A DNA stretch of 64,000 nucleotides from Buxus sempervirens. Lineage: Eukaryota; Streptophyta; Magnoliopsida; Buxales; Buxaceae. Shown here in pieces: positions 27,295 through 64,000 of the stretch; positions within the stretch are counted from its first letter, which is position 1; every line of letters begins with the position of its first letter. Below the pieces are notes generated by a model. The model did not search any database. It was not told the DNA's origin and worked only from the letters and a program-made list of their open reading frames with translations. The position numbers and the translations under genes were made by a program. The DNA lies in contig OX387187.1 in assembly GCA_947561395.2 (NCBI GenBank), positions 20,317,829 to 20,381,828 of the forward strand, in the 5' to 3' direction.

Positions 27295-27999
27295 TTGGAA
27301 TATTCTAGGGCTTCCAACAGGTCCCACAATAGAGAGAAAAATCTGAAATTCAAAGGCTTTCAGAGGCCCGGGGGGGTTTTTGAAAAAGGTCTGAAATTCA
27401 GAGGATTTCAGAGGCCCAGGGATATTTTTGGAAAAGGTCTGAAATTCAAAGGCTTTCAAAGGCCCAGGGAGTTTTTGAGAAAAAGTCTGAAATTCAAAGG
27501 CTTTCCGAGGCCCAAAGATCTGAAATTCAAAGGCATTCAGAGGCCCAAAAAAAAAGGTCTGAAATTCAAAGGCTTTCAGAGGCCCAAAAGATCTGAAATT
27601 CAAAGGCTTTCAGAGGCCCAAAAGAAAAAGGTCTGAAATTCAAAGGCTTTCAGAGGCCCAAAAGATCTGAAATTCAAAGGCTTTCAGAGGCCCAAAAGAA
27701 AAAGGTCTGAAATTCAAAGGCTTTCAGAGGCCCAAAAGATCTGAAATTCAAAGGCTTTCAGAGGCCCAAAATAAAAAGGTCTGAAATTCAAAGGCTTTCA
27801 GAGGCCCCAAAAGATCTGAAATTCAAAGGCTTTCAGAGGCCCAAGGACATTTTGAGAAAAGGTCTGAAATTCAAAGGCTTTCAGAGGCCCGGGGTTTTTT
27901 GAGAAAAAGTCTGAAATTCAAAGGCTTTCAGAGGCCCGAGGATTTTTTTATAAAAGTCTGAAATTCAAATGCTTTCAGAGGCCCAAAGGATTTTCTCTT
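27295..27999 (-). repeat. Leader tandem array of element A (34/40-bp units)
   Basis: About eighteen copies of a unit read, on the + strand, CTGAAATTCAAAGGCTTTC then AGAGGCCC, with alternating short and long spacers that give a 74-bp dimer in the middle. On the minus strand the unit core (GGGCC...GAAAGCCT..GAATTTCA) matches the 42-bp unit in the leader of element B. The sequence at 27295-27330 matches B's other unit (GGAATATTCTAGGGCTTCC). Confidence 0.87.
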
Positions 28000-31135: not shown

Positions 31136-31800
31136 TTTGGTCACTAGAACCATTCAAAAATCGAAAATTTGTGGGACATTTGGAAGCCCCAGAATATTCC
31201 AAAAAACCTTTTTTTGGTCACGAGAACCAATCAAAATCAAAATTTGCGGGACATTTGGAAGCCCCAGAATATTCCAAACAAAAAAAAACCCCTTTGTTTG
31301 GTCACAAGAACCAATCAAATACAAAATTTGTGGGACATTTGGAAGCCCCAGAATATTCCAAAAAACCATTGATTGGTTATTTTTTCTAATCAAATCAAAA
31401 CATTTGTGGGAAACTTGGAAGCCCTAGAATATTCCAAGAAAACTTTGGTTGGATATTTTTTCCAATCAAATCAAAACATTTGTGGGACACTTGGAAGCCC
31501 TAGAATATTCCAAGAAACCTTTGGTTGGATATTTTTTCCAATCAAATCAAAATTTTGTGGTACACTTGGAAGCCCTAGAATATTCCAAGAAACCTTTTGT
31601 TGGTTATTTTTTCCAATCAAATCAAAAATTTGTGGGACACTTGGAAGCCCTAGAATATTCCAAAAACACCTTTGGTTGGTTATTTTTATCAATCAAATCA
31701 AAACATTTGTGGGACACTTGGAAGCCCTAGAATATTCCAAGAAACCTTTGGTTGGTTATTTTTTCCAATCAAATCAAAACATTTGTGGGCCATTTGAAAG
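31136..31800 (+). repeat. Right part of the leader tandem array of element B (about 65-70-bp unit)
   Basis: About ten copies of the unit continue the array left of element A: GTCACGAGAACCAATC or GGTTATTTTTTCC, then TTTGTGGGACA(C/T)TTGGAAGCCC, then AGAATATTCCAA. Several open frames cross it only because the unit lacks stops in some frames; it is not coding. Confidence 0.87.
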
Positions 31801-34150
31801 CCTCTGAATTTCAAACATCAACCTATTTTGGGCCGTCTATAAGCCTCTGAATTATGGACACATATCCTTTGGGCCGTCTAAAAGCCTCTGAATTTTAAAC
31901 ACAATCTTTTTGGGTCATTTGAAAGCCTCTGAATTTCAAACATCAACGTTTTTGGGCCGTCTAAAAGCCTCTGAATTTTAGATACAATCTTTTTGGGCCA
32001 TTTGAAAGCCTCTGAATTTCAAACATCCATCTCTTTGGGCCATCTAAAAGCCTCTGAATTTTAGACACAATCTTTATGGGTCATTTGAAAGCCTCTGAAT
32101 TTCAAACATCAACGTTTTTGGGCCTTCTAAAAGCCTCTGAATTTTAGACACAATCTTTTTGGGCAATTTGAAAGCCTCTGAATTTCAAACATCAACGTTT
32201 TTGGGCCTTCTAAAAGCCTCTGAATTTTAGACACAATCTTTTTGGGCCATTTGAAAGCCTCTGAATTTCAAACATCCATCTCTTTGGGCCGTCTAAAAGC
32301 CTCTGAATTTTAGACACAATCTTTTTGGGCCATTTGAAAGTCTCTGAATTTCAAACATCAACGTTTTTGGACCTTCTTAAAGCCTCTGAATTTTAGACAC
32401 AATCTTTTTGGGTCATTTGAAAGCCTCTGAATTTCAAACATCAACGTTTTTGGGCCTTCTAAAAGCCTCTGAATTTTAGACACAATCTTTTTGGGCCATT
32501 TGAAAGCCTCTGAATTTCAAACATCAACGTTTTTGGGCCTTCTAAAAGCCTCTGAATTTTAGACACAATCTTTTTGGGCCATTTGAAAGCCTCTGAATTT
32601 CAAACATCCATCTCTTTGGGCCGTCTAAAAGCCTCTGAATTTTAGACACAATCTTTTTGGGCCATTTGAAAGTCTCTGAATTTCAAACATCAACATTTTT
32701 GGGCCTTCTAAAAGCCTCTGAATTTTAGACACAATCTTTTTGGGCCATTTGAAAGCCTCTGAATTCCAAACATCCATCTCTTTGGGCCTTCTAAAAGCCT
32801 CTGAATTTTAGACACAATCTTTTTGGGCCATTTGAAAGCCTCTGAATTTCAAACATCAATTCCCTTAGACATAATCTTTTTTCAGCCATTTGTAAGCCTC
32901 TGAATTTTAAACATCAACATATTTTGGGCTATCTAAAAGCCTCTGAATTTTAGACACAACCTTTTTGGGCCATTTGAAAGCCTCTGAATTTCAAACATCA
33001 ACCTATTTTGGGCCGTCTATAAGCCTCTGAATTATAGACACATATCCTTTGGGCCATCTAAAAGCCTCTGAATTTTAGACACAATCTTTTTGGGCCATTT
33101 GAAAGCCTCTGAATTTCAAACATCAACCTATTTTGGGCCTTCTAAAAGCTCTGAATTTTAGACATAATCTTTTTGGGCCTTCTAAAAGCCTCTAAATTTT
33201 AGACACAACCTTTTTGGGCCATTTGAAAGCCTCTGAATTTCAAACATCGACCTATTTTGGGCTGTCTATAAGCCTCTGAATTATGGACACATATCCTTTG
33301 GGCCGTCTAAAAGCCTCTGAATTTTAGACACAACCTTTTTGGGCCATTTGAAAGCCTCTGAATTTCAAACATCAACCTATTTTGGACTATCTATAAGCCT
33401 CTGAATTTTAGACACAATCTTTTTGGGCCATTTGAAAGCCTCTGAATTTCAAACATCAACCTATTTTGGGCCTTCTAAAAGCTCTGAATTTTAGACATAA
33501 TCTTTTTGGGCCTTCTAAAAGCCTCTAAATTTTAGACACAACCTTTTTGGGCCATTTGAAAGCCTCTGAATTTCAAACATCGACCTATTTTGGGCTGTCT
33601 ATAAGCCTCTGAATTATGGATACATATCCTTTGGGCCGTCTAAAAGCCTCTGAATTTTAGACACAACCTTTTTGAGCCATTTGAAAGCCTCTGAATTTCA
33701 AACATCAACCTATTTTGGGCCGTCTATAAGCCTCTGAATTATAGACACATATCCTTTGGGCCGTCTAAAAGCCTCTGAATTTTAGACACAACCTTTTGGG
33801 CTATTTAAAAGTCTCTGAATTTTAGACAAATCATTTCTTTGGGTCGTCTATAAGCCTCTGAATTATAGACATATATCCTCTGGGCCATCTAAAAGCCTCT
33901 GAATTTTAGACAAATCATTTCCTTGGGCTGTCTAAAAGCCTCTGAATTTTGGACACAACTTTTTTGGGCCGTGTATAAGCCTCTGAATTATAAACACATA
34001 TCCTTTGGGCAGTTTAAAAGCCTCTGAATTTTAGACATTTCTCATTCTTTGGGACCTTTGGAAGCCCTAAAATATTCCAAAAACTCTTTGGTTGGTCTTT
34101 TTTGTATCAATCATTTTCATACCTTGTGGGACATGTTGGAAGCCCTAAAA
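31790..34150 (+). repeat. 83-bp dimeric tandem array in the leader of element B
   Basis: Two related monomers of 41-42 bases alternate: GGGCCATTTGAAAGCCTCTG then AATTTCAAACATCAAC, and GGGCC(G/T)TCTAAAAGCCTCTG then AATTTTAGACACAATC. About 27 dimers are present, with local higher-order blocks (for example, near-identical runs at 33120-33290 and 33460-33620). The array ends in two copies of the neighbouring 65-70-bp type unit (34045-34160). Confidence 0.9.
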
Positions 34151-45196: not shown

Positions 45197-46738
45197 TCAT
45201 TTCTTCTCATATTTTCGCTTGATAAGATCTCCCAACTCGTCAAGAGACGCAATAGAACTAGCCGGAAATCCATGACAGAAACTGGCTTTAACCACATCTC
45301 CACGCTTTCGGATCTCATCGTCGGCGCTCAGTTTCTTGATCCCTCGTAGGACATCATCTTTTGTAGTATTTCCACTTCGATCCTCGCTTTGAACCATGAA
45401 GCCAATCTTTAGAACGTCCACCACAAGCTTAGCATTATAGTGCTGGTCGCCGCGTATCGGCCATGCAAGTATCGGCACGCGGCGTCCGATCGCTTCAAGA
45501 GTTGAGTTCCAGCCACAGTGCGATACGAATCCGGCCGTTGATGGATGGCTCAGTATCAAAAGCTGTGGTGCCCAGCCGCGTATTATCAAACCCCTCTCTT
45601 TTACTCGGCTAGCTAAACCCTCAGGAAAGAAATCTCGAGATCCCATTGGACCATGCGGATCGTGGGGACCACTGGCCATTGGAAGACTGCCACGTGGATC
45701 GGCTGGTGGTGGTGGTGGCCCACGCATGCCTGATTGTAGGGCCCAGATAAAAGGCCGGTTTGACTCTTCCAACGCGTCTGCCAGCTCAGCCATCGCCTCG
45801 GCGGTGGGGGCCACCTCGGTGCCAAAAGCCACGTAGATTACAGATCCACGTGACTTCGAATCTAACCATTCACCAATTTCTTCTTCCGTGATGGTCGAAC
45901 TCCGACTGGTACGGACGTCGTGATCGTGAACTAACGAATCTGTAGACTTCCAGAATTGCTCCGGCAAGAGGGGGCCCACACCCAGGACCGGCTTCCCAGT
46001 CTCTTTGGCAACGTAATCGATGAACGGACGCTCCAGATCATCACAAGTGTTAATCAACAACGCGACTGAGCCGTCCGTTTCAGAAACCCAAGGTGGTTTC
46101 TGACCGATTCCGGGTGGTTGGCCCCGCGGTGGCGGTTTTGTGTCCCCGCAGACGTTGTCACCGCCGTGGCGTTGTGGCGGAGGAGCAGGAGGAGGAGGAG
46201 GGGATGGGTCCCGGTGGGTGAGATCGGAACCTTTCAGACGCATGTCTTCCGGCAAACCAGGAAGAGTAAAAGTATCATCGGGATTTATATTTTTTGGCTG
46301 CAGTTTCCACAGAGCATACTCGACGGCGGCGGAGCATGCCCCGGACGTGAAGAAACTGAGGACGGGGATGTTAAATCTCCGGCACGGTTCACGTGCCCAG
46401 CTCATCATCACGTCGACAATGGCACAAAGAGGTGATTCACGATCTGGTACGTTGGATCGCCGGGAGAGGAGATCGAGAAGGGGCTGGGAGCCGGCGTCGT
46501 CGTGCTGGTGGGGGTGTGGGTCAGATCCCGGCGGTGGAGGACGATGAGGAGAAATGGGGAGTTCTGCGATGTGGACGAAAGGGTGCTGGAGGAGAGATGA
46601 AGAGATGGAGGAGGTGAGAGAGGTGGAAATCACGAGGGTAACTTCGTAATTTCGTTCCAAGAGGTGTTTGCAGAGTTCAGAGAAGGGGAAGAGGTGGCCA
46701 TGACCGTGGAAAGGAATCAATAGAATCTCACCTGACAT
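45197..46738 (-). CDS. Family-1 UDP-glycosyltransferase (UGT), single exon, intact
   Basis: The 513-residue protein is of normal UGT length (450-520). It transfers a sugar, usually glucose from UDP-glucose, to small plant metabolites in the cytosol. The N-terminal catalytic-His block is PFHGHGHLFPF (His15 is the likely base), and the partner aspartate is probably Asp109 in AIVDVMM. The C-terminal PSPG box spans residues 389-432, from WAPQLLILSHP through HCGWNSTLE to the final DQ. The last Gln suggests glucose as donor. Two unusual Pro/Gly-rich insertions lie at about 178-217 and 338-368. The start at 46738 is chosen because homology begins there, although the frame stays open a further 109 codons upstream. 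The subfamily and acceptor cannot be told from sequence alone. Confidence 0.93.
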   Translation of the reverse strand: MSGEILLIPFHGHGHLFPFSELCKHLLERNYEVTLVISTSLTSSISSSLLQHPFVHIAELPISPHRPPPPGSDPHPHQHDDAGSQPLLDLLSRRSNVPDRESPLCAIVDVMMSWAREPCRRFNIPVLSFFTSGACSAAVEYALWKLQPKNINPDDTFTLPGLPEDMRLKGSDLTHRDPSPPPPPAPPPQRHGGDNVCGDTKPPPRGQPPGIGQKPPWVSETDGSVALLINTCDDLERPFIDYVAKETGKPVLGVGPLLPEQFWKSTDSLVHDHDVRTSRSSTITEEEIGEWLDSKSRGSVIYVAFGTEVAPTAEAMAELADALEESNRPFIWALQSGMRGPPPPPADPRGSLPMASGPHDPHGPMGSRDFFPEGLASRVKERGLIIRGWAPQLLILSHPSTAGFVSHCGWNSTLEAIGRRVPILAWPIRGDQHYNAKLVVDVLKIGFMVQSEDRSGNTTKDDVLRGIKKLSADDEIRKRGDVVKASFCHGFPASSIASLDELGDLIKRKYEKK

Positions 46739-46784
46739 GTTTGTTAATGGTGTCCTTACCTTGCTCTCTCCTGTTTGAATAAGA

Positions 46785-46795
46785 CGTTTATAAAG
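46785..46795 (-). promoter_or_regulatory. Possible TATA box of the UGT gene
   Basis: On the minus strand it reads CTTTATAAACG, about 50 bases upstream of the chosen ATG. If used, the 5' untranslated leader would be only about 20-25 bases. Confidence 0.4.
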
Positions 46796-49700
46796 AAGTA
46801 GATAACTTCGGTTGTAAGGAAGTTGCTTGAAGATAAATTGACTGTAAGAGAAAATTTTTGGTTTGACTCTTTGGTGAAGAAACAATGTGAGGTCTTGCTT
46901 TCTTTGACCTAAACCGCCTTGTACATGATTCATGAGCAGCGGGATCGAGCAATAGCTTTGCATGCTCCTCGTGGGTACTCCTTTTTTTTCTGCTAAGTTA
47001 TGTCCACGTACTCGGAGTCTCTGTACCAACTTCGAGGATTTCATATTTTCATGAAACAAACCCATTAGGATGAGACTTGCTTAGGTCTCTTTTGGTGTTG
47101 TTACAAGGCCTTGAATGATTTTTAATGGATGCATGAATGATTGGTAGCTCTGCCAAAACCGTTCTCACAAAACGAGAATGAGAAAAACCATAATTTTGTA
47201 GGATTGCCCTTGACCCATTTGTCTATTTCTAGATTTTAGGAATGATTTCTAAGTTTTTTGCAGTGGTAAACTGGTAAAATTAGATGAAATTTTATCAGTG
47301 ACATATATGAAACGTAAACATGTCAGTCCACCTTCGTTTTCAATGAATAGAAGTCGACCCTTCCTCTTCAATGCACAGTTGATGCAAGTCTCCATTGCTC
47401 TGGATATTGAATGATAAAAGCTTGTCTAAATGGGATTTGGCGACCATTCTAAACGATATTCCATTGTGGCTAGAGGTGATCGAGAGATCTTTTCTTTATT
47501 GTATATTTATAATTTTTTTTTTCCTTTCATTTGTCTTTATTTCTAGCTTTGAATTGCTTGCGTTTACATCCTTATTGTTAAATAATGAAATGTTGACTGC
47601 TATTGCTATTCGATTGGATGGTCTTTTTTTAATGTATCGAGGTCCTTGTCTCTCATAATGGCATGCATCCTTCTATAATCTTATATACATTTGATTTATT
47701 TCTCAATAATGTGATGTGGCATGAGAAAGATAAGCATCACTTTTGTTTTATGGATTTTATGTTGTGTTGCTAAATCTCCAAATTTGCTCTAAACCTATCA
47801 ATTGCAACTTGCAAGATGAGAATCATGTTCAAACATTTTATAATAGCTATATTTCTCTGGTAGGATCTACCAGCTATAGAACCAAAGTGTGTTCCTGTAA
47901 TGCCGCTAGCTCCTCTTTAGTAATGGAGAATGATGGAAATAACTTTCTTCAGAACCACCTCAAACGTACTGGTAATGCTTTGGGAGAATAAAATTCATTA
48001 GGAGCTACTATTTTCAAATAGATAAGAGGTGTTGGACCAAATTTTTTTTTTCCTCCAGCCTTTTCATTTATGTGATGTCTAATTAATTATTCACGGCCAT
48101 AAGAAATTTAATTTGATTAAGAGAACAATCAGAGTCTCAGTTGTGTGTCATTCTTTAGCTTTATATTAGTTGCACATGGAGTCAACCATTATGAGTCATC
48201 AAAGCTCGTGAAACTTTAGAACCATAATTCCGATACATATAGCTCTTCTACTATTTTTTTTTTTAATTTTGTTTGGAATAACATTGTGGTGGCTATTCAT
48301 GAATCATATGATAGAATTTGGCACAAAATATCCCTTAGGGAGGGTTGGAGGGAAGAGAAACATTGGTAGGTAAATAGGAGTGTGGAAGTTCCAATCCTCC
48401 AAATGATGAAGGAAACCTGCCAACATTTCAAATGTTGTTTGGATATTGGCATTACATTTGGAGTATAAATATAAGTGTAAATAAGGAATTCAATATAAGG
48501 ACCCACCTACAATATTATAGAGTCCAATTAAAAAATCTTTACAATTCACCGAGACGAGCTTGGAGTGCATTGAAGAAGTTAATGGAACGGTATTATAAAG
48601 GTATATTAGTTTAGCATCCATTGGAAAATGGAACAATTTCATAAAGTTATATTAATTTATAAATAGATTCGCGATTTTCGTCATTATGATCCATTGTAAC
48701 AAATTATTAGTAGCTGGCAAACCCAGATGCAACTCAATTTCACAAGAAGCAGTTATTATGGGGATGTCTTAGAAATGCCAAAAATGCATTCTAATTTCAT
48801 TTTGATTTGATTCAAGTTTGTTTTAAAGGAATTTGGGTCTGCTTGGACCTATTCTGAATTTTTTTGGGCATGTACCGTTAGTTTAGAATGGTACAAAGAA
48901 TTTCTTCTTTGAATCATTTTTGGTTAATTTGCCTTCTATACTGCTATTCATGACCAGTACAGAAGGTCTTTCATCTCTGTACCGATTTGAGTTGAATAAT
49001 AACATTGTTTTGAATTTCTGAGGGTTTTTGCTTGGATGGTTTGAATAGAGGCTTGCAGGGCCTGAGGTGACCCTGTTGTGGATAAGAAGATGGCTATATA
49101 AGCCTATTTTGGGATGGTTTTTGGAGACAAAACACACCTTCCTCATTCTCAAGACATCCACACGCTTATGCGTACAACAATAAATAGGAAAGAAAACATG
49201 TATATCATCCAAAGAACACCAAAAAAAATAGATGAAGCTCAAGCTTTTGTGCTTTTATTCAAGTAAAATTGATTTTAACAAATGAGGTTTATGTTCTATA
49301 ATCTTACCTTTGCAAGGAGAAGGGTTTTAATGAGTCTTGAGGTAATTTGGTGGTCCCACAAAGGATTTGCAGCAGCTGGATGTCTTTTTTGTGCTTCACA
49401 AGTGAGTATCTTCACTTGTTTAGGGGTCTTGGTTGAAGATCCTTGGCTTCGGAAGAGTTTGATGTGTTTTAGGGGTATTTTTGAAGGATTCTGGGTGGTT
49501 TTGGAGGGCTGGGAAGTTTTCTCGGAGTAAAACGAAGCCGAAAGGTCCATGATCCTTTGAACAGTGCTCTGTTTTGGCTTTTTATAGCCAGAACTTGTTA
49601 AACCTCTTTGGAATCGTTCAATAAGAACAGTTCTACATGTTCTTTTGAATCATTTTCTTAGCACGGTTCAGAACATTTCATTTCAACCGTCAGAAATACC

Positions 49701-50833: not shown

Positions 50834-53092
50834 GGGAAAATTTCGAATACACCCGTCTTTTGAAAAGTAATTACAAAAACAGCCGTTGAAAAGTCTTACC
50901 TACCGATTCATGCCATTTTTCAAAAATATTTACCAAGTGGTCCGAAAACACTGTAGCACATTTTGAAGATCCGATTTTGCCCTTCCCTCTTCGTTCGAAA
51001 AAAGCCCTGTCGTTCTCAAAGAACGATTAAGCGCGAAACATTTGGAAGTTTGAAGGCTTCCCTGAGCGACGGCGACCCATCATCCCGGCGTGAGAATCGA
51101 CCATTGGTGCTTGCGATTGAGAAGGTTTGAAAGCCATTGTAACCCCTCTCATCTCTACCATCTCACGGTTTCATCTGGTTCGTTTGGGGCTTGTTTTTGT
51201 CGAGCGAAGAAGAAAACGGCCGTGGAGGGTTTCGATCTGGAGGTTTGTCGCAGCACATTTATTTCGTGGAGGAATCAGTGCAAGGTATGAACCGAACCGA
51301 TTTTCCCTAAGCATAATTTTTTGTGAAACGTTTTTCTCCTAATCCGTGAGTGATGGATGTATTTGGGTTTCCTACACCATGTGAAAGTGACGAAGAACAT
51401 TTGGATTACATTCATTGGAATCGCCTGAAGCTCATCGCTTTATTGATCGATGTGTTCGGGTAGAAGGCGATGAATCGAACAATGAACACATTGTTAATCC
51501 AATAAATTGAGTACAAGTCGATTAATCGATTGATGAACATATTTGGTGTGTTTTTCGTAATGCTGTGTTTAGTATAAAGATGTTTGTGGGTAGCATTTGG
51601 ATTACATTCGTTTTAGTCTCTGAATCGATGCCTTCGAAATGGGGGTTGCTCAATAGTTCGATTAATTGAAATATGAGCAATCATCTCAATTTTCAATATG
51701 CTGTTTGTATTGCTCTTGAAATTTAAAAAATTTGAGTCCCTTGAATGTATCAAACTTATCGAATTTAAAAATTGGAAAATAGGCTTCATTTTTTTTTCTC
51801 CTTTTCAATGTGTTCCAAAAGACATCTACTTTCTTATCTGGTCTGTTAAGCAGGAAAATGTAAACCAGTGAACTCTAGCTTGAAACTTGGCAGCCATATA
51901 GACTTCATCTACCAAGTAGTTCTTCTTGTATATGGCCTTTTAAAATTCTGGGGATGTGGAATCCCAACCTTTAGGATATCAAAAATTCTTTAATAGCATG
52001 ACAATAGAACAGGGCTAACATCCACAAACTTGCACTCCAATACAGCATGATTTTCAACTTTCAATCTTGTCTATCACATCTCCTATGGTGTTTACCCATT
52101 TAAGTATAAGCACTGGAAAGATTTTTTATTTGCCTTTTAAATCACTATCAGGCACCACAAATCATGCGATTACCTGGTGTGAGTTGCAGTACCATTTTGT
52201 ATGGTCTGCAAGTGTTTTTGCCATCTGCAGGGCATAAATAACCAAAGTGTACCACATCCTTACATCCTCACGAGATGAACAAAACACCATACACAAAACC
52301 ATTTTTTGTTCTGTTATTTTATTTTTCCATTTGGGTTGGTTCCTGGACACTGAAATTGCTTCTGTGCATCAAGTCCCAACCCAAAGTGGGTTTCCATCAG
52401 GGTATTTACATAATAACATTCTATCCTCTGGAAATAACATTTCTTCAAAAAAGAGAAAGACTCAAGGAAATTATGTCGTAGCATAAGAATTTGAACGCAA
52501 TTTGATCAAATGGAAAATATCTCTAGGTGTAAAATTCCAATGCAAGTTATGCATTAAGAATTAAAAAAATGCAGGAAAACAATTGTAGAGCTTAGAGTTT
52601 GACGACATTTCCAAAGATCTTGGGTATAGGGAAGATCATGAAATTGTGGTGAAATTTCCTAAATTCATGGAAGCTACTACCTATGTGTTGATGAATTTTT
52701 GAGAATGTTCTGTGTTTTGGCAATATACATCATTGTCAAATATGAAGGACTAGAGTTCTTCTTGAATCATTGTTTAGAAAAAAATTAGAAAAATCATTGT
52801 TTCTTCTCATTTTGTCAAACTTTTGCATTCCTCTGTTTCCTCATTGTCACCCTAGCAAAATAAGGTGTTTTATTTTGTTGCATTTGCCATTATATTTATT
52901 ACTCTGGAAATAACACATTTCCAGAGCTTCATGAAATTGGGTTTACATGTTCACCGCCTTATCGAAGTTGATTAAGGTGCGCATGATATAGGTTTATATG
53001 GGTAGATAATTGATAGCCTAAGTTGTTATTTTGAGTAGTTTATATTAATCATGCATTCGTTCACCTTGTTAACATGTTGTCTGGAGTGCAGT
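50834..53092 (+). other. Possible 5' terminal region and leader of a MULE; leader exon and long intron
   Basis: GGGAAAATTTCGAATACACC at 50834 has the look of a MULE terminus. No inverted partner is found in the window, so the border is tentative. About 51000-51283 resembles a 5' untranslated exon with a donor CAAG|GTATGA near 51286. The next acceptor, GAGTGCAG at 53084-53091, lies one base before the transposase ATG. This would make a 1.8-kb leader intron. Confidence 0.35.
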
Positions 53093-55585
53093 ATGGCTCA
53101 ACCACCCCCGGAGAAGTCGTTGTTTTGCTACTTGCATGTAGGTGGAGAGATAGTTATAGAACAAGATAAGTCTGTATCATATCAGGGGGGTCGTTTAGAT
53201 GGTTTGAATATAAGTGGTAATACACAGTACGATGAATTTGTAAGTGATGTCTGTAGTAAATTTGGGATATCTTCAGTGGGTTTGTCTATGAAGTACTCTC
53301 TTACGTACGATAAGAATGCTTTACTTCCACTTACTGATCAAGCGGGGTTACTTAACATTATCACCCACAACGAACGTTCTGCGAATGTGTACTTATTTAA
53401 CGGCGAAGGGCAATTGCAAAGCGTTCAGTCTTCCAGAAGGTGATTATCACATATTTTGACTTACAAAGTCATAGTGTTTGTTATCATACTAGTGTTTTAA
53501 TACTTAAACTATTTTATTTTCTAGGACGACTAATTTAAGAAGTAGTGAACCGTTGGTTGAACCAATTGTGATCACATTTGTTGATCGGGGGAGTACAATT
53601 GTTGGGAGTTGTATTGAACATAATAGGGCACCACTTGTGTCTAGCATGTGGCAATCAGAAATTATTGGTGATGGTCAGGTTTTTAGGAGTGGTGATGAAT
53701 TTAGGCAAGCTGTCTACAAGTATGCCATTGGCAATAGATTCCGTTATGTGTTCAAGAAAAATAGTCGAGAATATATCTCTGCCAGATGTTCTGTCGAAGA
53801 TTGTCCTTGGAAAGTTAACGTAGGTCGTGTGAAACATACGGACTGCATGATGGTACACAAGTTTGTGAATACACACAAACACTCGGCACAAGATGAAGTC
53901 TCAGTAAAGCCGATTGTGCGATCGAAGTGGATTGCTGGTGTTATTGAGAAAACAGTAAGAGAGACACCGAATTACTTGCCACGACAAATTTCCAAGGACT
54001 TTCATAATAATCATGCGATGAATTTAACATACCAGCAATGTTGGAGGAGCAAGGAGAAAGTGAAGAGGAAGATGGATGGAAATGTGGAGGACTCATACAA
54101 ACTTATTCCATGGATGTGTCAACGCTTAATGGAGTCCAATCCAGGGATGGTGGCTTGGTGTACATCGAGTGATGAGGGGAAGTTTAAACAGTTGTTCATT
54201 GCATACTCTTGTTCGTTGAGAGGATTTGCAGTGGGATGTAGACCTTTACTTTTCATCGACGGGACCCACCTTAGAGGACCATATCAAGGAACGTTATTGT
54301 CTGCTACAGCTCTCGATGCTGATGATGGTATGTACCCGATAGCTTATGCAATTGTGACTGCTGAGAATAACGAGGATTGGCTATGGTTCCTCGAACGGGT
54401 CAAGTATGCAATTGGAGGTCGAGCCGATGTTGTGATTGTGAGTGATAGGCATCAGAGTATTATCAATGCTGTGGGTAGCACATTTGGGTTTCAAAATCAT
54501 GCTCATTGCTATCGGCATGTGAAAGAAAATTTCAGCAAATTCATTAATCAATTTCATCTAGGCAAAGCGAAGAAGGTGGCTTTGGGATTATTGGATGATA
54601 TAGCTTATGCTCGGCTTCCAGAGGATTTTGATATGGCAATGGATGTATTGAAATCATATCCACCTGAAATGTTTGGTTGGGTGGAGCAAAATGGTCCTCA
54701 ACATTGGGCAAATTCCTTGTTTCCTAAGAAGCGTTGGGATAAGCTATATTCAAATGTAGCCGAGTCGTTTAATTCTTGGATGTTGGAGGAGAGGAAATAT
54801 CCTATCTTAAGATTCATTGATGCACATAGGGTTAAGTTAACTAAGATGTTGGTAAGGAAGAAGAACGAGATCAGCACATGGGAGACACCTATCTGTGGTC
54901 GCATTGCGAAGAAAATTGAAGACAATATAGCACGAGGAGTGGGGTTGTCTGTAATGCAATGTGGTGAACATGAATATGAAGTCAGGCCATGTGTAACGCC
55001 CCGGATCCGTGTTTTTCATTAAAGATATAACACGTCTCACGGAGGTTAGGCAAGGATCGTTAATCAATTTATGATCGCTGGATAATCATACATCTATAAC
55101 CTGACAGAGTGCACATTTCCATTTATGCAAAATTGTAACATTTAAACTGAATTGGAATCATATGGTTCATCCCCAATTAACTTTAATACATCTCAATTAA
55201 TTCAAGTTCTCAAATTCAGAACAGATAACCTACAAGTCTAAGGAAGGTAATAGTAGTCTTCCTCCCTATATGCCTCAGCAGGATCTACCCCAGTAATCGT
55301 CTCACCACGAGTATCTGAAAAACAGAACAACAACAGAGTGAGATACGAATATCTCAGCGAGTAGCACATGCATGCAGAAATAGTTGATCACATTTTAAAA
55401 CTATGCATCGACAACACTACAATACGTTTAAACAATCAACATCAATTTCCCAAGTTCAAATCAAACAAATCACATCTCAGTTAAGTACAATAACACATCG
55501 ATTGGTCAATGTCATGACTATCGTTTAGTTGATAAATTAAGCATGCCAAGTAGACACTCCACACCTCCATGTACACAATTCCGGC

Positions 55586-55700
55586 CTACTCAGGGTTTCG
55601 GATACTCTGAAATGACGGCCTACTCAGGGTTTCGTCATCCAATGCAGGCCTACTCCCCGGGTTTTTGCATTGACAACCAGGCCTACTCAGGGTTTCTGGC
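55586..55700. repeat. GGCCTACTCAGGGTTTC repeats in solo LTR
   Basis: Four diverged units lie 30-40 bases apart. They are the counterpart of 26271-26385 in the other family-S copy. Confidence 0.7.
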
Positions 55701-56299
55701 TGCTCTACACCGGTCGTGGCAACACACAAGGCCATGCAATTCCAACAACCAACAATAACATCACATTACTAAGCTTAAACATCTGGATCCAGGACAAGCT
55801 AGACCAAAACAGTAAACATCGTATAATCTCAATTTCAATATCAAAATAAAACCCATTCATTCCACATCATGTAAAACTCATCACAATTCATCACCTGTCC
55901 CTCTGGACCAAGCAGTACTTCAGTATTTTTCTCATTTCCGTAACACATGCCATTTGGAAATAAAACTCAAGTATTCATACCAAAGAATTCCTTTCAATAC
56001 ATTTAAAGTTTCCAACAAGTGAAACCAGAAATACAATAACTTCTCAATCAAAACAGTGTATAGAACAAGGAAAAATAACTGGTAACTCTTACTAGTTTGG
56101 TGTCCGGCACAATACTCATAAGTAACCTAAACTCAACTTAAAAACTCCTACGAGGTTCACTAATTTTTCCTCTAATAATTTCATAGGCAAAATGGTTTCC
56201 CAGGTTCCTAACCAAGTGAATAGTGAAGTGGTTTAACCCCTAAGTAATGCAAATACTCTTGGTCAAATCAGAAATTCCATTTCAGTAAGCAAAATAGGG

Positions 56300-56545
56300 T
56301 GTGCGCTCACTTCCTGAGGTGGGCGCGAGGTGAGCACCGGTCGGCGGTGAAGAAACAGTCAAAAATGGACCTACCGCTCACTCGACGATAGGTGAGCGTG
56401 AGGTGAGCGCGAGATTCGCGCGAGATGGGCGCAAGGTTTTCTACTTCGCACGAGATGAGCGCCAGCCGGGCGTGAGCTCGGCGGTAGGTAGTGTTTAACA
56501 GGGCACCTACCTCTGAGGTGAGCGCCGGTGAGCGCGAGGTGAGCG
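56300..56545. repeat. GGTGAGCGC short-motif patch in solo LTR
   Basis: About ten copies of GGTGAGCGC, GGTGGGCGC and relatives occur. They are the counterpart of 25465-25725. Confidence 0.6.
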
Positions 56546-57857
56546 GATACCCCATGTGATTTTCATTTCTCTGTTATTTCGAGATCTACATGACTGGCCG
56601 GTTTGTGTACCTCTGTAATTGTTCTACTACCCTCCAAATACTCCCAGAAGACTTCCCAACCATATTTGGAATTAATCTAAACACTTTCATTTTTAAATAT
56701 AAAACTCAATCCGGAGACTCTGTTCAATTAATTTCCCGAAACCCAGAAAAACCAGCAAACTCATACCATCACTTAATGTATAAACCATGCATCAGAATAA
56801 GCTCGAGAGAAACATAAAACACAAAACCCAGTTGTAAAACCGTGCTACTCACTTGAAATCGCTTATTCCGAAATACCCAGAACCTCGGCCGATCACCACT
56901 TCGGCCACGCACGCGAAGGAAAATCTCTCCAAACCAAACTTCTCAAGCAGTGAGAGTTAACCCACTGAACTTCAACTCCGAACTCCTTCTTTTAGCCCTT
57001 GCGATTTCTGGTCCTTCACGAACAGAAACCCTAGTCGCCACTCCAGCCGAAATCGCTAGTTCTCCTGATATCCAGACTAACGAAAATGTTTCCGAAATTA
57101 TGATAAGCGTATTCTCTTAACCCCAACCCTACTTTCCATTTTTAGTACACTTACTTGATACATACGCTGCTCGAATACCCTCCCATTTCCTTGATCCTAT
57201 GCATGCTCGCCCACCGGAGATACTACATGTTCCGCATCCATTTACATTAATAATCACATAACTATACTTTAATAGTAACAATGATAATACTACGATTTTT
57301 CGGAAAAATGGCTATATAACGCCTGTACATACGAGTATGGGCTAAGCCCTCAAACCACAAAATAACCTGATAAACACAGTTTATACATCAGAATAAATAA
57401 CTAAATAAATAAATAAATAACTCACAAAAATCAGGGTCTTACATCATGTGATAGAAACATTGCTGTGGATATCTTGAGACGGGAATGTACATGCAAGCGA
57501 TGGCAAATGTCCGGCATACCTTGTGAACATGCATGTGATGTTTTGCAGAAGAAATCACTAAATTTATATGAGTATGTGGAGCAGTGTTATCACAAGTGTA
57601 CTCAAGAGCTGATATATGCAGAGTTGATGCATAGTGTACCAACACATGACATACCTAATGTTGTGGATATTGATGCGATATCTCTTACTGACTCATCTGA
57701 AACACCAACAAGCATGCTGCCCCCTAAAACAAAGCGACGACCTGGGCGTCCTCGGCAGAAGCGCATAGAGTCTCAATTCCAAAACAAGTGGCCGGTCCAC
57801 TGTTCCCATTGCAATGAGGCAGGACACAACCGAGCTACATGCAGGGCCTCAATTTAG

Positions 57858-58290: not shown

Positions 58291-60275
58291 ATGGACGAAA
58301 ATGCACGTAGTCATGATGTTGGAGAAGCTTCTACCTCGGTGGCGAAGGCAAAACGACCTCCAAATCCTTGGGTTCTATTCAAGTAAGGAAACGTGATATT
58401 TGTTTCATGTGTTTGATAGACTTATCATAAATAGTTAGTGTAATAATGCTTGTATTTGATGGATTTATTTTCTTGTATCCCATGTAGGTCTGAGTACATT
58501 AAAGAATGCGCAAGGGGCGGAGAACAAATAATGTTAAAGAAGGTATTTTTCCCGATTAGTTGCAAACAGATTTGACACGCGGTTCATGCCATTGTATAAT
58601 TTCTTTGTAGGCTAATGACGGTGCCGCAGCAGTGTGGTGGGATATGGATGCAGAAGCGAGGCAGCCATATCATGAGCGAGCTGCCCAATGCGCAGCTGAA
58701 TGGAAAACATCTCGGTCTAAAGCAGCGAAAAAGAAACCTAATCAGGTATGTTTTGCCACTTTACCATGCTTCCAATTTACGATTGATCATACAACGAAGC
58801 ATATATAGTTTATTGTTTTTTTTTTGGTACGTCATTAGTACACGTGATATTGCAGACATGTATGTTCACTCGATGCTCTCCACTGCGATTTGTGGAGTGT
58901 TGCAACCGGTTTACGCCAGAACAGCGTTCAGTGGTAGAAGCCATTGGTTTTGGGTCCCTCCTCCATCTTCACAGCAGGTCCCTTAAGAGAGATTTATGTA
59001 TTTGGCTTGTTAATCAAGTCGATGTACACAATTGTTGTCTAAAAATCAGAGAGTACTCCATTCCTATTTCTAGTTTAGATGTCAGTGCCATATTGGGGAT
59101 TAGTCATGTAGGAGAGCCAGTCAGCACTTCTGGACCAGATGATAGAGTGGAGGAGGTCCGTAGTATGTTTAAGATTGAGAAGCATGGTATTCCCCTTGCA
59201 GAGTTGCAGTCTAGGTTAGCTACCCCTGAGTGTGGCCCTGATTTTATAAGAGCGTTTGTTTTATTCGCACTGGGTTGTCTTTTGTGCCCAAATGCGAACC
59301 TTTGTGCTAGTAGGAGTTTCTTACACACGGTGGTAGATGTAAATAGCTTGCCTTCCCTAAATTGGGCAGAGTTTGTTCTTCACCGCCTTATCGAAGAAAT
59401 CAAAGTAGTTCAGTTGAAGAAAAAGCAATGCATAGGTGGTTGCATTTTGTTCTTGCAGATGAGAACTGTTAATTCGAAGTATTCACATTACTTTTGCATT
59501 TTGTATATTTTCTGAATATACAAACACATATCCATGACGATGGTTCCATTGTTTGGCTTCTCTTTTCCAGTTGTTCTATTATGAGCGTGTTCTTCATGGC
59601 CCGCCGAACCCAGATAGACGATTGCCACGTTTGTTGTTTTGGACAAAAGAGCGTTTGAAGGCACGGGAAACCGCAGAGAGGAAAGCCGGTGGATTCGGCC
59701 TCGGACAGGTTTACTTTACTTTAAATTGTATATGCTGGCTCAGGTTGATGCATTATACAACAAGGTGAATTAATTGTGAGCATGTGTTTTGCAGGTAAAT
59801 TTGGAGGCATTGATGTCTGACACCGGTTTTGGAAGTTCCGCATGCAGAAGCGAATTTCCATCAAAAGCACAAGTATGGATCCGCTCCCCTCTTCACAATT
59901 TTTGACTTATAACGACATTGGAATGTTGTGTTTACTTATTTTCTATTGTGTAGTCCACATCGGAACGGTTAAAAGAGGATGTTCCAGTTACCCCTGAAGA
60001 TATGAACTCTGAATTTCCTATTATTGACCCTGTAAGATATAGTTCATACCTCGTCTAACCGTTAATCGCCAATTTCCATTAATTACAGTCCTATTATTGA
60101 CCCTCTAATGCAACCAACTCTATCATTCTCCTATTTTCAGGATGTGGCTGGTCGGCTGGTGCACATGTGGAAAGAGTTACAGATAATGAATGATGCATAT
60201 CGGACAGCCATCAGTGCTGTACGAGATGCATATGGAAGCCGCGATAGTATAGCTGATAAAGATATAGGTGACTGA
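58291..60275 (+). CDS. Spliced gene joining an HMG box to a plant mobile-element domain
   Basis: Eight phase-consistent coding exons are visible: 58291-58382, 58488-58542, 58611-58745, 58856-59458, 59571-59708, 59795-59872, 59954-60031 and 60141-60275, 437 residues. Residues about 26-94 look like an HMG box (NPWVLFKSEYIKE, then WWDMDAEARQPYHERAAQ), followed by a basic run. Exon 4 carries a domain known from MULE-borne Ulp1-type genes and PMD-like proteins: CSPLRFVECCNRFTPEQRSV, FGSLLHL, LCIWLVNQVD and ISSLDVSAILGI. No protease domain follows. The C-terminus is short and helical. The donor of intron 4 reads CAG|ATGAGA rather than CAG|GTGAGA, so this copy may retain intron 4 and end early. It lies on the same strand, 433 bases after the transposase gene, which suggests a second gene of the same transposon. 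Confidence 0.62.
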
Positions 60276-60640
60276 GATGTTATTACATTGGTGAGAGTCT
60301 GTAATTGATAAAAGGAGAGGCTAACATGGAAAAGTAAGAGATGTATGGATGGTTAACAATGTGTTTTGCCAGGTTGTACATTGAAAACAATTAATAAATT
60401 GATATTATTTTTTCTCATTCTAACACTCAAATACCTGAATCATTGTTTTATGAACTCAAAATTCATAGACCTCTGACAAAGGGACTAAACATTTGCGATC
60501 ATTAATTACTAAATTGCTCATCAAAATACTGGTTACTCTAACATTTTGTTATGATTAACCCAAAGTTATCTTATGCAATTGATGATGTGGTGCACCACAG
60601 CAAAAAAACCAACTCTGGAGCTCATCGACAAAATCTAGAT
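60276..60640. other. Gap after the HMG-box gene
   Basis: This is AT-rich DNA without a gene or a recognised element border. It runs into the motif arrays. Confidence 0.4.
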
Positions 60641-60676
60641 GCATCGTAAAATAAATGATTAATCGTTATTAATAAA

Positions 60677-61520
60677 CGATTAATCGGTTACCATCAGCCG
60701 CTATGAGCCCAGTTGTGCGTCGGCAATTATCGATTAATCGGAAGTTCATCCTGAAATTAGTTGGACATTAAAACGTCACGCTGGAATTTGAATCGGAACG
60801 TGTCCGATGAATCAAAAATTCATGATTCGTCGGTCATTCGTTACGATTAATCGGTTACCATCGGTTGCTATGCGCCCAGTTGTGCGTCGGCAATTATCGA
60901 TTAATCGGAAGTTCATCCTGAAATTAGTTGGACATTAAAACGTCACGCTGGAATTTGAATAGGAACGTGTCCGATGAATCAAAAATTCATGATTCGTCGG
61001 TCATTCGTTACGATTAATCGGTTACCATCGGTTGCTATGCGCCCAGTTGTGCGTCGGCAATTATCGATTAATCGGAAGTTCATCCTGAAATTAGTTGGAC
61101 ATTAAAACGTCACGCTGGAATTTGAATCGGAACGTGTCCGATGAATCAAAAATTCATGATTCGTCGGTCATTCGTTACGATTAATCGGTTACCATCGGTT
61201 GCTATGTGCCCAGTTGTGCGTCGGCAATTATCGATTAATCGGACCTTAGTCCTGAAATTTGTCTTACAAAAACGACACTCTGTACCTTGAGTCGGCACTT
61301 CGTCGATGCATCAAACATTAATTGTTAGTCGGGCATCCGTTACGATTAATCGGTTAGCATGGATAGCTAATAGCCCAGTTTTTCATCGGCAATTTCGATT
61401 AATCGAATATTAATCCTGCAATTTTGCCTCAGAAAACGACAGTCTGTAATTTGAATCGCCAATTATCGATGAATGTATATATAATGGTTAGTCGGATATT
61501 ACTTATGATTAGTCGGTAAT
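60677..61520. repeat. 167-bp tandem array with CGATTAATCG palindromes (about five copies)
   Basis: Unit starts fall near 60677, 60844, 61011, 61178, 61343 and 61507. Copies 2 and 3 are almost identical and the later ones are diverged. Each unit carries CGATTAATCGG twice and a longer imperfect palindrome, CCGATGAATCA...TGATTCGTCGG. Confidence 0.9.
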
Positions 61521-61629
61521 CATCGATTGGTACCCAGCATTGGCGTTTGTTGTGGACACTTCCGATTAATCGACGAATTTTATTCGAATCGAATTGGGAT
61601 CTTCATCGAAGATTTAAAAAACGATTAAC

Positions 61630-62800
61630 CGTTCATGGGATACAATTTCATTATTCGGTGGATACACTTTTGATTCGTGGGATACAATTTCATTATTCGG
61701 TGGATACACTTTTTATTCATGGGATACAATTTCATTATTAAGTGGATACGTATTTCTAATCGTTGCCAATTCGCGAAGTTCAGATGGTATCCCACGATTA
61801 CTACACTTATATCCGACGCGTACTTGGGAGAAACTTTCGATTAATCGATAGAATAAATTTCGATTACTGCCCTTCGTGGGATACAATTTCATTATTCGGG
61901 GGATACACTTTTTATTCGAGGGATACAATTTTATTATTCAGTGGATAAGTATTTTTAATCGGTGCCAATTAGCGAAGTTCAGATGGTATCCCACGATTAC
62001 TACACTTATATCCGACGCGTACTTGGGAGAAACTTTCGATTAATCGATATAGTAAATGTCGATTACTGCCCTTCGTGGGATACAATTTCAGTATTCGGTG
62101 GATACACTTTTTATTCGTGGGATACAAATTCATTATTCGGTGGATACACTTTTGATTCGTGGGATACAATTTCATTATTCGGTGGATACATTTTTAATTC
62201 GTGGGATACAATGTCATTATTCAGTGGATACGTATTTCTAATCGTTGCCAATTCGCGAAGTTCAGATGGTATCCCACGATTACTACACTTATATCCGACG
62301 CGGCTTTCGATTAATCGATAGAATAAATGTCGATTACTGCCCTTCGTGGGATACAACTTCGTTATTCGGTGGATACACCTTTTATTCGAGGGATACAATT
62401 TCATTATTCAGTGGCTACGTATTTTTAATCGTTGCCAATTCGCGAAGTTCAGATGGTATCCCACGATTACTACACTTATATCCGACGCGTACTTGGGAGA
62501 AACTTTCGATTAATCGATATAGTAAATGTCGATTACTGCCCTTCATGGGATACAATTTCAGTATTCGGTGGATACACTTTGTATTCGTGGGATACAAATT
62601 CATTATTCGGTGGATACACTTTTGATTCGTGGGATACAATTTCATTATTCGGTGGATACATTTTTAATTCGTGGGATACAATTTCATTATTCAGTGGATA
62701 CGTATTGTCTAATCGTTGCCAATTCGCGAAGTTCAGATGGTATCCCACGATTACTACACTTATATCCGGGCCGTTATTGGGGGATATCTTATTAGCATCG
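61630..62800. repeat. Higher-order array of about 42-bp GTGGGATACAATTTCATTATTCGG units
   Basis: Short units (GGGATACAATTTCATTATTC, then GGTGGATACACTTTTTATTC) alternate with a longer segment that begins GCCAATTCGCGAAGTTCAG. That segment recurs at 61764, 61964, 62247, 62434 and 62718, giving alternating steps of about 200, 283, 187 and 284 bases. The step changes by two short units. The longer segment also contains TTCGATTAATCGAT. Confidence 0.88.
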
Positions 62801-63280
62801 AGGATATAAATATTTCTTCGTAGGACACTCTTTAAGCAATCGAAGGATACTTATAGAGGTTCGTGGGAACAACCCGAAGAAATGGATGGTATCCTACGAT
62901 TAATCAAGAAGGATATAATTCCATCATCGTGGGATACATTTCCGATACGATTGATCGCAAAATGTTCGATAAATCGGAGAAGAGAGAATGACCCATGAAC
63001 GTGATCGATCATATATTGATTAATCGTAACGATGACGATTAACTACGTCGGGCGTTTGAAATTCAATGATCGGCAACTTATCGACTAATCGTTTATTACG
63101 ACGTTGATCGTAAGATAGTCGATTATACCCGTACAATTATCGTTTTGTCACTTAAACAACCGATGAATCATGGGTTTTTGTCGATTAATCGAAATTGACG
63201 AAACCAAGCGACGCTTCGTTTTGCGCGCATATCTTCCAGGGGATCCCATCTTCCAACTGACGTGACCCTTGCGATTAACT
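62801..63280 (+). promoter_or_regulatory. CGAT/ATCG-rich upstream region of the gene at 63666
   Basis: Single and overlapping CGATTAATCG, CGATTAAC and CGACTAATCG motifs continue at lower density, the last perfect one near 63181-63190. A leader-like CT-rich stretch (about 63310-63375) and a CCCTAGGGTTTT motif follow. The promoter assignment is inferred from position. Confidence 0.4.
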
Positions 63281-63665
63281 CTCTTACATATTTTCAATGC
63301 GCGTACCAGTCTCATCATCTTCTCATTTGTCATTCCTCATTTCTCATCCTCTTCTCCACCGTCCCTAGGGTTTTTTGCGTCGACTTCTTCTTGGGAGATA
63401 GCGTCAATCGTGGAAGTTCTTCTTCTGGTAAGTGATGCTAAGATTTTACAACTTCTTTGCTCCATTCCATTTCCAATGAACTAACCATTCGTGTACATTG
63501 TTTGTTGTTTGTTTCGTTTGTTTTTTGGGGTTTTGATCTTCTTTCGTGCGCCTCTCTCATTTGTGTTGCGCGTTCTTGAATGCTTGGATGATTTTGTCTG
63601 TAATGGCCTTGTGTCTTCCATTGTTGTTCTCGTCTGTGCCTTGACGTCTTTGCTTTAAAGGCATC

Positions 63666-64000
63666 ATGCCCAAACGAAAAACCTTAGGTCGTAAGGCTAA
63701 GAAGGCAAGGACGCCTACCCATCTCCTCCCCCTCATGATCTCCCTCCGTCCGGGTCAGACTATGACCCAGACGATACTGAGCAGGCTGTAGCCGGGGCTA
63801 CGAGTTCGCCTTCATTGTCTCCAGAACACGCACCATCCGCTGCCCTTGGGGGGCATGGGGTACGCGTCCAAAGGTCATTGGTCGTTGAGAAAGCCGTGCT
63901 CAAAGACCAAATTTCGAAATATGGTTTGGAACCACTTCTTAAGCAAATAGGATGGGAGGGTATTTTGGACTGGAGTGGTGATGCAAACATGTCGGTCGTG
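63666..64000 (+). CDS. Start of a mobile-element-type gene, cut by the window end
   Basis: An ATG at 63666 opens a frame with no stop to the window end (at least 111 residues). The N-terminus MPKRKTLGRKAKKARTPTPS is strongly basic, a likely nuclear localisation signal. A Pro/Ser/Asp-rich stretch follows, and then a segment (SLVVEKAVLKDQISKYGLEP, GWEGILDWSGDANMSVV). That segment resembles the start of plant transposon proteins of the Athila ORF1/Transposase_32 or PMD-like group. An untranslated leader exon with donor TTCTG|GTAAGT near 63427 and an acceptor TTTAAAG just before 63661 fit a leader intron, the same layout as the MULE transposase gene. The family call is tentative. Confidence 0.5.

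Follow-up and report, generated by a model that had tools for sequence, protein, structure and literature searches.

As listed in Table 1, the window (a stretch of 64,000 nucleotides from Buxus sempervirens, positions 20,317,829 to 20,381,828 of contig OX387187.1) was found to enter, at position 50834, a Mutator-like element of about 18.5 kb, which ends at position 69333 when the window is extended with the sequence L005. The element is called family A here. From left to right, it carries a gene for a PB1-like and MURA transposase, a gene with an HMG box and a PMD-like domain (HMG-PMD), tandem arrays, a Transposase_32 gene (gene 3), and a separate Ulp1-like gene on the minus strand. An earlier note on this DNA had described 2.5 kb of arrays (60640 to 63200) rich in the word CGATTAATCG, a palindrome. 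The unit that carries the word is instead the whole 18.5-kb element. The gene starting at 63666, which the note had called nuclear-type, is gene 3. The MULE transposase that it named as a neighbour is present as MURA, but it lies 3-8 kb upstream and is interrupted in this copy. The HMG-box neighbour is also present, with HMG matches that lie below the Pfam cutoffs.

Table 1. Features of the family A element in window coordinates ("exact" and "one-mismatch" refer to the word CGATTAATCG).
Feature	Position	Strand	Remarks
Left terminal inverted repeat	50834-50998	+	Starts GGGAAAATTTCG; partner at 69333-69169 of the extended window (L005)
Left subterminal block	51406-51700	+	Exact site at 51519; one-mismatch sites at 51468 and 51659
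PB1-like N-terminus and MURA transposase, 5′ part	53093-55001	+	Pfam MULE 2.3e-18, DBD_Tnp_Mut 2.9e-14
Insertion of about 2.4 kb interrupting the transposase in this copy	55002-57440		Transposase frame resumes at 57417-57854
Transposase 3′ part with SWIM zinc finger	57441-57857	+	Pfam SWIM 9.2e-8, zf-C2H2_10 3.2e-6
HMG-box and PMD-like gene, candidate word reader	58291-60272	+	Exons 58291-58382, 58488-58542, 58611-58745, 58856-59458
Array 1	60676-61423		TRF; 167-bp unit with two words per unit, 54 and 113 bp apart
Word between the arrays	61563-61572		Strongly diverged relic unit (18/20 word positions and 68/133 other positions match unit 3)
Array 2	61632-62768		199/470-bp unit with one word each, at 61838, 62037, 62308, and 62507
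Non-tandem stretch	62897-63191		One-mismatch sites at 62897, 62948, 62967, 63017, and 63082; exact site at 63182
Gene 3, start of Transposase_32 (PF20167) gene	63666-64000, continuing to 64969 in L005	+	Pfam 6.3e-19

The terminal inverted repeats (TIRs) extend over 168 bp at 97.6% identity in blastn, and their first 130 bp are identical in the alignment. TIR Mutator-like elements are marked by long TIRs and a target-site duplication of 8-11 bp. The TIRs are seen here, and the flanks TTAAAGTAT and TTAAAGGAA of this one copy match at 7 of 9 positions, a candidate target-site duplication. The left subterminal block has an inverted partner at 68603-68790 (89% inverted match), and two exact word sites lie near the right end (68671 and 68722). 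Part of the block (query 573-720), which is single here, is tandem in another subfamily, for example at C12:34203555-34204718.

The PB1 match of the transposase N-terminus (Pfam, 5.8e-4) is below its cutoff. Other copies have uninterrupted, longer transposase frames. When 86 of 953 candidates were scored, the transposase was matched at 86-100% in at least 45 loci and at 64-66% in 41 further matches. The insertion in the present copy begins with TGTAACGCCCC, ends with TTACA, and has CATG on both sides; by eye, it resembles an insertion of the solo-LTR type. The four joined exons of the HMG-PMD gene are likely followed by further exons up to 60272. Its product matched High mobility group protein 2 (1j3c) in phmmer with an E-value of 0.0016, and its Pfam matches to HMG_box_2 (0.0026), HMG_box (0.0046), and PMD (3.5e-4, and 7.9e-5 in another search) are all below the cutoffs. 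DUF1985 was not listed among the Pfam matches of family A. The Ulp1-like gene has two exons, whose Peptidase_C48 matches are 3.1e-4 (above the cutoff) and 0.046 (below the cutoff).

The region downstream of gene 3 is matched in about 40 places in the genome. A derivative of family A, L073 (C1:8574000-8578000), has 1.23-kb inverted arms at 99% and 14 exact words. It contains a diverged array 1 and array 2, while only fragments of genes remain, namely of PB1 and of the last exon of the PMD gene. Array 2 of the 87% type seen in this derivative also occurs in about ten other places. Outside the element, the window has an 83-bp tandem unit repeated 27 times (TTTTTGGGCCAT...GCCTCTGAATTT, 31778-34038) that is unrelated to the element, a 34/74-bp array related to this 83-bp array (27334-27994), and a 622-aa open reading frame on the minus strand (45197-47065). 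From its HCGWNS stretch, this frame presumably encodes a plant UDP-glycosyltransferase.

Placement of the word in the element and the genome

The word CGATTAATCG has a CpG at each end (two CpG) and an AT-rich core with TAAT. As the earlier note had stated, it is repeated through two tandem arrays of different unit and the DNA up to the next gene; I counted 16 exact and 7 one-mismatch sites between 60640 and 63200. The whole window has 30 sites with at most one mismatch against 1.02 expected (sd 1.03), and none of 100 shuffles reached 30. In the 676.5-Mb genome, there are 2484 exact words versus 238 for CGAATATTCG, a palindrome with exactly identical dinucleotides, and two more controls (reversed patterns) gave 238 and 513. 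Pairs of the word with a gap of 80-110 bp occur 272 times genome-wide versus 0 for the reversed control. Among the 50 pairs listed, 34 fall where other family A queries match too, and 16 had no such match among the matches listed.

Within the element, array 1 has 10 exact sites (11 with at most one mismatch), array 2 has 4 (4), and the spacer between them, 61426-61630, has 1 (1). The non-tandem DNA at 62769-63300 has 1 exact site and 6 with at most one mismatch, against 0.15 expected. Beyond the window edge, 4 exact sites and 12 with at most one mismatch follow gene 3 (64973-66000, in L005; 0.08 expected), and the flanks of these 12 sites, which lie at 65237-65827, are unrelated. The left end (50834-53050) has 1 exact site and 4 with at most one mismatch, and the right end (67991-69333) has 2 and 2. 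No exact or one-mismatch site was found in the transposase, HMG-PMD, gene 3, and Ulp1-like compartments including introns (7657 bp together), nor in the 2.4-kb insertion and three short spacers of the element. Since non-repeated DNA, the stretch past gene 3, and the two end regions also contain the word, the objection that the two tandem units alone explain the count fails. With array 1, array 2, and the subterminal block that is tandem in another subfamily, at least three distinct units that contain the word have undergone multiplication.

A second objection considered in the earlier note was that the word might be just as frequent in unrelated repeats. There is no exact site at positions 1-50800 of the window, which include other tandem arrays, and no CGATTAATCG in the fetched stretches of the families B, D, C, E, and H. 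Of the first 50 sites in the genome listing, which reach 8.83 Mb on C1, 34 were classified; the other 16 include 6 in a single 0.8-kb cluster. The classified sites comprise 31 in places matched by the element or its derivative and 3 (L001, L002, and L004) with no similarity to the element. These stretches and sites answer the objection in part.

Different words in related families

A copy of family B (C1:5633562-5652561), whose MURA is 64% and PMD 46% identical to those of family A, has no CGATTAATCG and 32 GGGACTCGAG, mostly every 21-22 bp. A copy of family D (C14:1443881-1462880, L069/L070), whose PMD is 65.5% identical to that of family A, has no CGATTAATCG and 54 CATAGGGGGATACA, every 22 bp, in a word array of more than 4 kb. 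The exact counts of CGATTAATCG, GGGACTCGAG, and CATAGGGGGATACA are 23/0/0 in A, 0/32/0 in B, and 0/0/54 in D. Genome-wide, the 11-mer GGGACTCGAGC of the B word was found 2615 times versus 73 for the reversed word, and the D word, which has no CpG, 275 times versus 5. A short family-specific word dense in non-coding DNA is present in A, B, and D, and the word-bearing tandem repeats differ between the three. Since GGGATACAA is common to A (16, in array 2) and D (71), the family words are not wholly exclusive; GGGATACAA may perhaps be an older word. The heptamer GGATACA recurs every 20 or 22 bp in array 2 of family A.

Clusters of the B word lie within 10 kb of 3 of the 4 B-type transposases on C1 up to 44.4 Mb, and clusters of the D word within 6 kb of 5 of the 8 D-type PMD exons, in both cases among the matches listed; some word clusters have no partner gene among these matches. 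The PMD match is above the Pfam cutoff in B (8.9e-11) and below it in D (5.9e-8), and DUF1985 in B has an E-value of 0.2. No transposase match was found in the 19 kb of the family D copy. A, B, and D all have separate Ulp1-like matches, on the opposite strand. Downstream of the PMD exon, 8 kb of the family C copy (L072) and 8.5 kb of the family E copy (L071) contained no dense word. In family E (C9:20611500-20619999), the Ulp1-like exons are on the same strand and directly follow the PMD exon, which is the more usual order.

Does the transposase itself read the word? In other DNA transposons, subterminal repeats bind the transposase, as with Spm TnpA and MuDR MURA. Similarly, MURA might bind CGATTAATCG to assemble a transposition complex, and the internal arrays would be surplus or titrating sites. 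The exact sites near both ends (51519, 68671, and 68722) lie in the inverted block and the derivative L073 retains word-bearing inverted arms, both of which are consistent with such binding. However, 19 of the 23 exact family A sites lie between 60.6 and 65.8 kb, at least 3.5 kb from either element end, and no CGATTAATCG site lies in the first 130 bp of the TIR. The word arrays of B and D are also concentrated: all 47 GGACTCGA matches in B lie at 12.5-14 kb, and 154 of the 155 GGATACA matches in D at 8.5-13.5 kb, of 19-kb stretches in which the element ends were not located. Moreover, MURA is still 64% identical between A and B, yet the word is wholly different. I consider this explanation unlikely. 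Slightly less credible is the view that the sites serve a host transcription factor, the palindrome being a homeodomain-like or other host motif that acts as an enhancer or promoter for the element genes. The location of the arrays upstream of gene 3, the AT-rich core with TAAT, and the sites flanking genes would suit such a factor, but three families of one host (A, B, and D) have different words, and there are sites past gene 3 and at the element ends too.

Retention of the word and possible self-recognition

Is the word kept as the array units diverge? The sample consisted of 22 copies built from 60 search loci, with 87 units of array 1 and 72 units of array 2. The words were set inside the query unit; placing them at the unit edge favours them (100% instead of 92% intact in array 2). 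In the 58 of 87 array-1 units that are 60-90% identical to the reference, identity reaches 97.7% at the word positions versus 80.4% elsewhere. Ranked by intactness among 145, the two word 10-mers come 6th and 3rd. Each of the four word CpGs is retained in 93-97% of these diverged units, and nine other CpGs in 24-97% with a mean of 58%. The words do not stand out in the 27 array-1 units at 90-99.9% identity (rank 61 of 156). Of the 72 units of array 2, 92% have an intact word, versus 75% for the median 10-mer (rank 22 of 190), and the word is not favoured in the 5 diverged units (rank 92 of 179). The spelling of the words at 62897-63191 was compared in 20 of the 22 copies.

Six further units were compared with unit 3. 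Units 4, 5, and 6 of the window match it at 20, 20, and 18 of the 20 word positions and at 126/145, 102/144, and 68/133 positions elsewhere; units 1, 2, and 0 of L073 match at 20, 20, and 15 of the 20 and at 91/144, 79/144, and 83/144 elsewhere. Thus, 4 of the 6 units keep all 20 word positions, with the rest at 87, 71, 63, and 55%. Since the word itself guided the placement of these units, a choice in its favour, and the units are related, the comparison is supportive rather than a strict test. The relatedness of array units by descent also reduces the effective sample to a few unit classes. The word is kept better than its surroundings in diverged array-1 units, and weakly so in array 2.

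Passive satellite growth, in which unequal crossing-over amplified DNA that happened to contain CGATTAATCG without any recognition, would account for both main arrays being tandem repeats of variable copy number and for the weak conservation of array 2. It is improbable in view of the 12 non-tandem sites with unrelated flanks, the presence of the word in three different tandem units, and its retention in units matching at 55-71% elsewhere. Most improbable is that the word serves silencing, as a small-RNA source or for methylation nucleation, rather than escape: VANC1 and VANC6 targets overlap RdDM targets (PMC10398659) and CGATTAATCG contains two CpG, but its retention suggests a benefit to the element, in diverged array-1 units its CpGs survive more often than other CpGs do on average, and the D word has none.

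On balance, it is somewhat probable that family A has a VANC-like, family-specific self-recognition system in a long-TIR MULE, in which the HMG-PMD protein is the likeliest reader and would bind the word and relieve silencing. In Arabidopsis, VANC21 binds YAGTATTAY, a word that is dense in VANDAL21 non-coding DNA and has been arranged in tandem repeats; the words for VANC6 and VANDAL6 are AGTTGTCC/AGTTGTAC, and VANC alone is reported to be sufficient for methylation loss (PMC5735166). Family A resembles this system in its MULE transposase, in a short word that is dense mainly in non-coding DNA, in word-bearing tandem repeats that differ between related elements, and in an additional variable element protein (PMC5735166, PMC10398659). 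In contrast to VANDALs, its word is palindromic and has CpG at both ends, its candidate reader is an HMG-box and PMD-like protein and no clear DUF1985/DUF287 protein, it has an extra Transposase_32 gene, and its anti-silencing is putative. In addition, family A has long TIRs and the inner inverted block, whereas VANDALs are defined by TIRs that are absent or short and degenerate, related elements with TIRs being also mentioned (PMC6446971). The pattern of the word agrees with VANC-VANDAL in all sequence features that could be compared, so the best reading is that family A works like that system; that it is a VANDAL fails because of the long TIRs. The VANDAL-like self-recognition proposed in the earlier note is thus partly supported. 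The dense non-coding word, its unrelated contexts, its retention in array 1, and the other words of two families speak for it, while membership of family A in VANDAL is unsupported, given its long TIRs, the HMG-PMD gene, and the separate opposite-strand Ulp1-like gene.

In En/Spm, a CACTA element, the TnpA protein binds a short repeated subterminal word, and this is tied to transposition and demethylation. Family A would be similar in that an element protein is proposed to bind the repeated word of its own element; it differs from the CACTA superfamily, with its subterminal words and unrelated proteins. Like the KIU VANDALs, family A is a MULE encoding an Ulp1-like peptidase. Unlike KIU VANDALs, A, B, and D have Ulp1 as a separate, opposite-strand gene rather than inside a VANC gene, and family A has long TIRs. 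Family-specific word recognition by the Ulp1-carrying (KIU, Kaonashi) VANDALs of eudicots is reported in a review (PMC13317346).

In the system that I infer, the region from 60640 to 63200 would be part of the self-recognition DNA of the 18.5-kb element. An element-encoded DNA-binding protein, most likely HMG-PMD, would bind the palindrome CGATTAATCG as a dimer wherever it occurs in the non-coding DNA of the element (subterminal blocks, intergenic arrays, and dispersed sites), and specificity would come from the high local density of the word. By analogy with VANC, the binding would counter the host silencing of family A only and make the element genes expressible, perhaps with help from the Ulp1-like protein. 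Tandem amplification of word-bearing DNA may have been favoured by selection for word density, giving unrelated arrays with the same word. As the reader diverges between families, the word would change too, to GGGACTCGAG in B and CATAGGGGGATACA in D. A more specific version of this reading is tentative: long-TIR MULEs may have a sequence-specific self-recognition and anti-silencing system with an HMG-box-PMD reader that is not a classical VANC, and at least three related families (A, B, and D) may each have switched their word. In B, D, and array 2 of A, the words recur at intervals of 20-22 bp, close to two turns of the helix.

Besides the Ulp1-like gene, HMG-PMD is the gene that A, B, and D have in common. 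Reading by eye placed its HMG exons before the PMD exon in both B and D; tblastn at E 0.01 gave no match for the HMG box in B and D. The HMG box is identical at 27/64 positions (42%) between A and D, whose PMD exons are 65.5% identical, and at 11/27 in one exon between A and B, whose PMD exons are 46% identical. The scores of these HMG alignments were reached by 0/1000 shuffles for A-D, 0/1000 for A-B, and 40/1000 for D-B. A faster-changing DNA-binding part, as this one comparison suggests, is what word switching would need. From a 3-row alignment, AlphaFold gave a poor model of the family A PMD exon (mean pLDDT 61.5), for which no PDB fold match was found at E 0.001. Since the D word holds no CpG, methylation-sensitive reading via CpG is unsupported as a general rule.

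If the reading is true, A, B, and D would form a natural series of matched reader-word pairs, and three related families with three words in one genome would be a ready set for studying the co-change of protein and word. Self-recognition by short words would then reach beyond non-TIR VANDALs with a DUF1985-type VANC to long-TIR MULEs with an HMG-box protein. It would also bear on how motif density gives specificity and on the sequence-targeted use of such proteins on chromatin. In the titles and abstract beginnings of the literature searched, no HMG-box MULE with words of this kind was reported, and no paper whose text contains CGATTAATCG had a transposon title.

Gene 3 was also considered as a general reader. 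This is less likely, as the fetched B and D stretches have arrays but gave no gene 3 match. Distant relatives of gene 3 (46-49%) account for 57 of the 112 matches listed, many with a 508-aa frame and near-equal scores. The common frame and scores point to a recently spread family. Upstream of one such relative (family H, L074), other words are frequent, namely TGTACACA (19) and GGGGTACC (14).
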